From positions 1 through 38,298 of IMG/VR virus record IMGVR_UViG_3300020421_000064: DNA of 38,298 bases. One strand, 5' to 3'. This DNA comes from a virus. Made by a program: the position numbers and the translations under genes. The notes under the pieces were generated by a model that did not search any database, was not told where the DNA came from, and saw only the letters and a program-made list of their open reading frames with translations. Shown one piece after another: positions 32,986-34,626 of this stretch. How positions within the stretch are numbered: position 1 is the first letter of the stretch; each line of letters opens with the position of its first letter.

Positions 32986-34212
32986 CTAGTAAGCTGTCCA
33001 TTGTCTACGCTCGTTCAAGTTCAGGATACCATACCCGAGTGCATCTACCATATCATCGTGGGCTCCAACAGGAAAGGTGAATAACTCTCTTTCCATAGCA
33101 TCGAGCCAAGGAGCATCTGTCTTAAAATAGACATCTCCAGCTTCCATCCTAGCAGATAAAGTCAATGCTCGTGCTACTTTATCTTTATCTGGTTTAACAT
33201 CTTTTACACGCATTCCTTGACGTTTAGCCATTTGGATTAAAGAAAGTTGGAATCCTTGTCTTTCCATAGTTACCCATCCAGCTTGATGTTTATCAATCAT
33301 TTTCTTAATAGCAGTCAATATATCTGGTCCTTCATACTTTTCACGTAAACAATCGACAACAATCATTTTGTTATCTTTCGTCAAAGCAATAGCTATTATA
33401 GCAGTATAGTCTGCATCTTCCTCAACAGAAGTAGCTATATCTGTAGCTAAAAATATTGTGCATTCATTTTTGTCATAAACCTGTCCATTTAATAAATAAT
33501 TACCACTTTCGTCATATGACCAATATTGCATCCATTCAGGTTTAATCATACCTTGACCAGCTTCTACAAACTCTGCAAGATATTCTTGCGCAAAAACAAT
33601 AGAACCAACTTCTGTTTTTGCTTGGTCAACTTCATCAGGATCTATTCTTGGATTGTCGTAAGTTGAAAATCTAAACCTTTCCCAATTATCTGCATTTTCA
33701 GCTGTTTCCCATAAGTTATAAAACCAGTTGTTCATCCCCATAGGTGTACTAATAAATAAAGCAGATCCTTTTCTTTCAGTAAGAGTAGGTCTCAATACCT
33801 CAGCCCAAACTTCAGGCTTAACAAAAGCAGCCTCATCCATAACAATAAAATCTAAACCTTCACCTCGAAGCCTTTGTGGGTTGTCAGCTGACCTAACAGC
33901 AATTTGACCACCATTTGCTAATGTAAACTCCATATTAGCAATAGATATTTCTGGTTCTATTTCTTTAGGAAAAGATTGTGCTGTTGCTTGTATGTCTCTC
34001 CAACCTACTCTAGCAATAGCAAAAGTAGGAGCAATCCACCAAGCTCTGCCACCTCTAAGTGCTGTTTCCATACACATCTGAACACCTAGTCTTGTTTTAC
34101 CAAATCGTCTACCTGCGCATAAAATTTTCCAACGTGCATCAGAATCAAAGACTTGTTGCTGTGCAGAATGTAAAGAAGGTAGCTTTGGAATATATAAAGT
34201 GTTATCTGACAT
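32986..34212 (-). CDS. terL: Terminase large subunit (408 aa)
   Basis: ATPase-nuclease motor that packages DNA through the portal. Walker A is AGRRFGKT at residues 33-40 (K39, T40); Walker B is FIVMDEAA with D126 and E127; the coupling motif STP is at 155-157. Nuclease acidic residues: D258 (LATDIA), D268, E317 and HDDMVDALGYG with D386, D387 and D390. Complete at 408 aa, slightly short for the family. No small terminase subunit is recognised next to it. The region just upstream has phased repeats that could be its DNA target. The only Shine-Dalgarno-like bases (AGGA) sit in a hairpin directly before the ATG. Confidence 0.95.
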   Translation of the reverse strand: MSDNTLYIPKLPSLHSAQQQVFDSDARWKILCAGRRFGKTRLGVQMCMETALRGGRAWWIAPTFAIARVGWRDIQATAQSFPKEIEPEISIANMEFTLANGGQIAVRSADNPQRLRGEGLDFIVMDEAAFVKPEVWAEVLRPTLTERKGSALFISTPMGMNNWFYNLWETAENADNWERFRFSTYDNPRIDPDEVDQAKTEVGSIVFAQEYLAEFVEAGQGMIKPEWMQYWSYDESGNYLLNGQVYDKNECTIFLATDIATSVEEDADYTAIIAIALTKDNKMIVVDCLREKYEGPDILTAIKKMIDKHQAGWVTMERQGFQLSLIQMAKRQGMRVKDVKPDKDKVARALTLSARMEAGDVYFKTDAPWLDAMERELFTFPVGAHDDMVDALGYGILNLNERRQWTAY

Positions 34213-34234
34213 ATGGCTATCCTAAGATAGCCAT
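34213..34234 (-). promoter_or_regulatory. Hairpin directly abutting the terL start, covering its ribosome site
   Basis: Perfect 9-bp stem ATGGCTATC / GATAGCCAT with a 4-nt loop; the terL ATG begins at the next base. The Shine-Dalgarno (TTAGGA) spans the loop and the start of the 3' arm. The hairpin also contains a 5-codon ORF (ATG GCT ATC TTA GGA TAG). It may limit or tune terminase translation. TAGGAT also sits 6 nt before the ATG, the leaderless geometry seen elsewhere in this window. Confidence 0.5.
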
Positions 34235-34245
34235 TGATGGGAGGA

Positions 34246-34266
34246 AGTCGGAGTGGAAGACCGACT
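34246..34266 (-). promoter_or_regulatory. Second hairpin in the terL leader
   Basis: Inverted repeat AGTCGG / CCGACT with a 9-nt loop, 6-bp stem, 11 bp from the first hairpin. Also inside this leader is a 19-codon ORF with a good ribosome site (starts MVKFISRSSTPTSSHQWLS, ATG 34285) that overlaps both hairpins. It could be a leader peptide; I do not call it a gene. Confidence 0.35.
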
Positions 34267-34310
34267 AATGAATTTTACCATATGACACCCCTTCTAAATG
34301 CTTTTTCTTT

Positions 34311-34361
34311 ATTATATAATCTAATCTCATCTAATCTCATCTCTTCTTATCTCCTCTTATC
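34311..34361 (-). repeat. Five 10-bp phased repeats upstream of terL (candidate packaging/terminase site) with a TATAAT box
   Basis: Read on the minus strand, GAT recurs at exact 10-bp intervals five times, with ATC on the plus strand ending at 34361, 34351, 34341, 34331 and 34321. The first four follow GAT(A/G)AGAnnA; two copies are identical (GATGAGATTA). Ten-bp phasing puts every copy on one face of the helix, typical of protein-binding iterons such as terminase small-subunit sites. The last unit runs into TATAAT (34316-34311), a consensus -10, so the repeats could also be an operator. Confidence 0.55.
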
Positions 34362-34380
34362 TATATGAGTTAGTAACGCG

Positions 34381-34626
34381 TTACCATTTGTACTTAACTT
34401 TCTTAGCTTCATTATACTGTTTGAAAGATTTTTCAGTTAAATCACTAGGATCTCCATCCCACTCAACATCTACAGGAGTTTCAAACATTACATTTTTAGA
34501 AACTTGTCTTTTGGTTGGACTTTCACAAAGTATACACTTAATGGAAGGATCTTCAGTTATTTTATGAGTTATCTCGAACACTTGTTCGCATTTACCATTT
34601 AGGCATTTATAATCGTATCTAGGCAA
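34381..34626 (-). CDS. FmdB-type zinc-ribbon protein (81 aa)
   Basis: 81 aa, starts MPRYDYKCLNGKCEQVFEIT. Zinc ribbon C8, C13, C31, C34 in the FmdB style (MP-x-YDYKC ... C-x2-C followed by PTKRQVSK). The C-terminal part is unrelated (FETPVDVEWDGDPSDLTEKS). The start codon is TTG 34626, overlapping the previous gene by 8 nt, with AGGAG 6 nt upstream; no ATG is available. Small FmdB-like proteins are common near terminases in environmental phages; role unknown, possibly regulatory or DNA-binding. The stop lies in a 12-bp palindrome (34373-34384). Confidence 0.8.
   Translation of the reverse strand: MPRYDYKCLNGKCEQVFEITHKITEDPSIKCILCESPTKRQVSKNVMFETPVDVEWDGDPSDLTEKSFKQYNEAKKVKYKW

Follow-up and report, generated by a model that had tools for sequence, protein, structure and literature searches.

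What is the function of the short repeats at positions 34311–34384 of a marine phage contig (IMGVR_UViG_3300020421_000064), which lie in the gap upstream of its large terminase gene? The whole stretch of 38,298 nt was analysed and is called the window here. The initial annotation had described helically phased decamers and a palindrome, and proposed a packaging initiation site, to be bound by the small terminase, or an operator.

Repeats and a pentamer array upstream of terL

The gap between terL (32986–34212, minus strand) and an 81-aa zinc-ribbon ORF (Zn_ribbon_8; 34381–34626, minus strand) is the largest non-coding gap in the window, at 168 bp (34213–34380). Read on the minus strand from the zinc-ribbon ORF to terL, the order of elements is GTAACGCGTTAC, TAACTCATATAG, nine AGANN units, TTATATAATAAAG..., two hairpins and the terL ATG. 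The palindrome GTAACGCGTTAC (34384–34373) is present as annotated, and its sequence alone is nothing unusual. It is followed by a degenerate second copy, TAACTCATATAG (34372–34361), and the pair forms iteron-like repeats (34361–34384, minus strand) that overlap the stop codon of the zinc-ribbon ORF and correspond to tandem 11-bp copies in relatives.

Five GAT decamers are indeed spaced at exactly 10 bp, but the true unit is 5 bp rather than 10: the decamers are part of a pentamer array, (AGANN)x9 (34318–34362, minus strand, 31% GC), with (NNTCT)x9 on the pyrimidine strand. Against this run of nine units, shuffling the whole window 400 times by dinucleotides gave at most four, and a run of seven was reached in one of 5,000 local 56-bp shuffles. 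A test for repeats upstream of the array was significant in most relatives and not in the window itself, because its iterons are few. Adjoining the array is an A+T-rich stretch (34297–34319, no strand assigned, 13% GC) holding the TATAAT box that had been noted earlier; by its likeness to lambda-type origins (PMC5043065), this stretch is a probable DNA-unwinding segment.

Conservation of the module and its residence in initiator genes

Conservation of the repeats in relatives had been suggested as a check, and AGA every 5 bp is kept across 17 distinct relatives. In their alignment, the two letters between successive AGAs vary, and every insertion or deletion within the array measures either 5 or 10 bp exactly. 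Phasing of GAT at 10 bp is particular to the window's sub-lineage, and the palindrome represents a single copy of the 11-bp tandem repeat TAACGCGTTAx, present two to three times in close relatives. Phages with TerL proteins 60–65% identical to that of the window carry the same array, with 9–12 units in most and usually AGAGT, AGAAT or AGACT as the unit. There it is located approximately 2.5–3.3 kb upstream of terL and ahead of a small-ORF operon, directly after other palindromic repeats, either GTCAC-AT-GTGAC (GTGAC repeating at 10 bp) or TCGGAATTCCG; in a phage with the G012-type initiator, described below, the repeats are GTCACATGTGAC. Iteron sequence changes between sub-lineages while the array persists, and each record has one array, contigs of 82–85 kb included. 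Judged from these alignments, the repeats and the array are one module, conserved and relocated together.

The module is also found within genes. IMG/VR was scanned for (AGANN)8AGA, which returned at least 120 contigs, and 57 arrays were left once simple repeats had been set aside. Among the matches listed, 47 of these 57 non-simple arrays of at least eight units lie within a sense ORF, the array-bearing ORFs are mostly 220–300 aa long with the array near codon 125–150, their Pfam matches are Lin1244_N (9), Phage_rep_org_N (4), Phg_2220_C, Rep_Org_C, DnaB_2 and DUF1376, and the PHROGs they match are replication initiation protein, replisome organizer, DnaD-like helicase loader and O-like. In 78 of 95 cases the 90 bp preceding the array are enriched in repeated 6-mers, against 10 of 95 for the 90 bp following it, and the polarity from iterons to AGANN is identical in coding and non-coding copies.

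Cultured phages carry such origin-like modules in their initiator genes, namely Vibrio phage douglas 12A4, Pantoea phage PdC23, Pseudoalteromonas phage BS5 and Roseburia phage Shimadzu, whose records have no origin annotation there. Like the window, all four have repeats, of the GTCATGA type or the GACGACCG type, followed by AGANN units (five to seven, at codon 129–137 of the initiator); unlike the window, their modules are in-gene, with a shorter array and another iteron sequence. In six cultured phages, one of the two genes following the initiator codes for a helicase loader of the DnaC-like or P-like kind, a DnaB-like helicase or a DnaC replication protein. A scan of bacterial genomes returned mostly simple microsatellites (117 low-complexity) among the matches listed, and is weak as an independent replication because these dominate; the matches listed also include three complex arrays, each after iteron-like repeats as judged by eye, one of them inside a phrog_9474 initiator.

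Because the AGANN pattern itself selects arrays, initiators were also chosen by protein similarity. A set of 26 distinct initiators, made up of those gathered in this way and lambda O, was tested for 5-nt periodicity against codon shuffles, with the six initiators of the free-array family described below set aside. A significant 5-nt periodic tract (p<0.05) was detected in 17 of the 20, mostly near codon 120–150 and spelled AGANN or ACCNN. By the same test, no 5-nt periodicity was found in the six set aside, and none that was significant in lambda O or the Streptococcus phage SM1 initiator. The array is not universal among phage initiators. Many of the 17 are spelled ACCNN (e.g., L329, L334 and Paenibacillus phage Harrison), and the shared property is therefore a 5-nt register beside iterons and not the letters AGA. 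ACCNN arrays follow iterons at approximately codon 135–150 in initiators free of AGANN (L329, L334, L330, L339, L340 and L367), and the L334 iterons, TAACGCGTTACaGTAACGC, resemble those of the window.

Five relatives, G018, G007, G012, G029 and G031, have both an array and an initiator in the same phage, and the two are arranged in complementary ways. In G018, whose TerL is 60% identical to that of the window, the array is inside a 296-aa initiator (phrog_9474, 2e-37), 24 kb from terL and 20 kb from terS. The initiators of G012 and G007 are homologous to it (phmmer E about 1e-44) and array-free. Together with those of G029 and G031, they lack exactly the linker segment that encodes the iterons and array in G018, and each of these four phages has exactly one free-standing array, 18–26 kb away. 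G029 and G031 were picked by similarity to the initiator and searched for arrays only afterwards. The most economical account of these comparisons is that the module departed from the initiator gene in one piece, the outward direction of the move being presumed.

The phage of the window is a member of this free-array family. By phmmer and HMM searches, no initiator was found in the window, a partial contig, in its close relatives G001, G002 and G003, or in G025. The 56.4-kb contig of G025 has terL at 1.3–2.6 kb and, at the opposite end, a relative of the 538-aa protein encoded in the window. Since genes that are neighbours in the window thus lie at its two ends, G025 may represent an almost complete genome of approximately 60 kb, circularly permuted and without a recognisable initiator.

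A two-hairpin element beside terL

The rest of the gap is filled by an element that is separate from the repeats and array (34213–34267, minus strand; defined by sequence and a covariance model). It consists of a hairpin GTCGG..CCGAC, an invariant TCCTCCCATCA and a second hairpin, TGGCTATC..GATAGCCA. Six nt before it is a TAAAAT hexamer resembling a -10 box (34266–34277, minus strand), called by eye rather than by an independent promoter test and, again by eye, TAnnAT-like in close relatives. A covariance model built from ten copies recovered the element in nearly all relatives, with E values down to 1e-22. It is always on the late-operon strand, mostly 0–2.6 kb upstream of terL and up to 3.2 kb in L028; in the window's clade it abuts the terL start codon. 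Further copies are at L348:667–724, L061:3198–3255, L035:3042–3098 and L296:1786–1843 (minus strand). Across the family, the feature that keeps its place within about 3 kb upstream of terL is this element and not the decamers.

Hairpin 2 shows compensatory changes in four pairs (69 cells, versus 15 in column shuffles), counts that lean towards the model because the alignment was fitted to it. In distant relatives, a T-run follows hairpin 2 and a -10-like hexamer precedes hairpin 1, a pattern that would fit a terminator-bearing small RNA. The conserved single strand is complementary to Shine-Dalgarno sequences. The element is probably an unreported small RNA or a terL leader; as a candidate small RNA, it could pair with Shine-Dalgarno sites. 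A search of Rfam with positions 33900–34700 gave no match near any gathering score, and an exact search of bacterial genomes for the two-hairpin core found none. A translated leader peptide was rejected as the reason for the conserved hairpins because frames differ between relatives.

Nine contigs (L039, L052, L114, L116, L122, L125, L135, L150 and L348) start 530–705 nt upstream of the two-hairpin element, with L114 and L150, from two metagenomes, starting at the same base. These starts are possibly a physical genome end or an assembly break. Among loci of the window's clade, 10 of 24 contigs end approximately 2.0–2.6 kb upstream of the element, which corresponds to 36.3–36.8 kb in the window, near the boundary between the 118-aa and 538-aa genes; this interval may be a variable region or a genome end.

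A probable replication origin and the alternatives to it

We conclude that 34311–34384 is most probably an initiator- and iteron-type phage DNA replication origin, separated here from its initiator gene. We prefer this to a packaging or operator site because arrays sit in initiator genes, repeats precede the arrays, and relatives show complementary gain and loss. What holds of the site as initially annotated is that it is an iteron-like, predicted protein-recognition site conserved in relatives; its assignment as a small-terminase target or operator is not supported. Neither of the binders proposed at that time, the zinc ribbon and a 213-aa protein, is needed.

For packaging initiation, a pac or cosB site would be one where the small terminase binds the array beside terL, and in the window the array does adjoin terL, with terS 2–6 kb from the array in most relatives. 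A fixed terminase-gene neighbourhood was nevertheless not found: terS in those relatives is not at the array itself, the array is kilobases upstream of terL in distant relatives and farther from both terminase genes in G018, the identical module is embedded in initiator genes of many, unrelated phages, and it is the two-hairpin element that keeps its place beside or near terL. We regard packaging initiation as unlikely. In G002, a relative with 89% TerL identity, a terS homologue is found at 33834–34253 (minus strand), about 4.85 kb upstream of terL, and by synteny with it the terS gene of the window probably begins just past the contig end (beyond 38298).

Equally improbable is a transcription operator or promoter of the late operon, with palindrome and array as regulator sites. 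The site heads the terL operon in the window's clade and the small-ORF operon in others, and -10-like hexamers lie downstream, but promoter-consensus matches in the region are at chance level (4 observed, 2.4 expected). Such a function would also leave unexplained both the residence of the same module in the replication-initiator genes of many phages and its complementary loss from them.

Still less probable is an RNA target for a TRAP-like ring protein, which would read KAG triplets 2 nt apart in a late-operon 5' leader. The 9–12 xAGNN triplets would suit such a protein, as would the position of the array in distant relatives, between palindromic repeats and the Shine-Dalgarno site of the small-ORF operon. 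However, C is tolerated before AG in 36 of 869 units, and arrays are mostly mid-gene in initiators and not in leaders. The TRAP-type site was rejected because the gene for TrpBP (PF02081) is absent from the relatives (0 of 11 phage records, with a positive Bacillus subtilis control; a host might still supply such a protein). That the array is a coding repeat for a charged protein linker (R-x-E-x-x) mistaken for a DNA element is very improbable: it does encode such a linker in initiator genes, but neither in the window nor in its relatives is it coding, the peptides encoded by ACCNN arrays are different, and in GC-rich phages the arrays keep to AGA where the remainder of the gene favours other codons, a count biased by retrieval through the pattern.

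Returning to the replication origin, the window shows the tandem repeats beside a strand-asymmetric, easily melted region that are expected of a lambda-like origin, where initiator binding would be predicted. Lambda has an established in-gene ori, in which iterons are followed by an A+T-rich region where one strand carries nearly all the purines (PMC5043065), and these iterons, within gene O, adjoin that region. The module resembles it in having iterons flanked on one side by such a region and in its polarity, from iterons to purines on the coding strand, and its many in-gene relatives share the initiator gene context. It differs in that lambda has no strict 5-nt array, and in that the module of the window is outside any initiator gene. 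The sign change of GC skew in G007, G012 and G031 is located 6–7 kb from the array, not at it, and tracks gene direction.

In the mechanism we propose, a phage initiator (replisome organiser) would use its N-terminal DNA-binding domain to bind the TAACGCGTTAC iterons as double-stranded DNA, and this binding would open the AGANN array and the A+T-rich stretch beside them. The initiator or its helicase loader might then hold one exposed array strand in a register of 5 nt, and capture of that strand would place the replicative helicase with a defined polarity. The DnaA-trio/DnaD element of bacterial oriC is similar in being a short phased repeat beside initiator boxes with a single-strand reading, although its register is 3 nt versus 5 nt in the array of the window. 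DnaD of Bacillus subtilis requires a pair of TnnT on the same strand (PMC10201434), and on the plus strand of the window every (NNTCT) unit junction is TnnT. This match is not a general rule, because in related initiators the complement of an ACCNN array contains no TnnT. A model of the G012 initiator gave no significant Foldseek match and weakly resembles winged-helix folds, including the DnaD N-domain (VIA-align Z of 4.0–4.7 at most).

There is perhaps an even chance that a broader statement holds: that many phage origins carry a previously unrecognised loading array in a 5-nt register beside their iterons, in at least two spellings (AGANN and ACCNN), which initiators or helicase loaders would read as single-stranded DNA, and which would be the phage counterpart of the DnaA-trio/DnaD element. 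In this marine phage family, it would have moved out of the initiator gene and would work in trans. Among titles and abstracts of the open-access literature (PMC), we found no description of a 5-nt array in phage origins. If this interpretation is right, visual inspection or a simple pattern search could locate the origins of many uncharacterised phages, even where the ori is far from the initiator, and it raises the question of which protein reads DNA in five-nucleotide steps during helicase loading. The split between ori and initiator gene in this family would separate selection on the DNA from selection on the protein, which is impossible for an in-gene origin.
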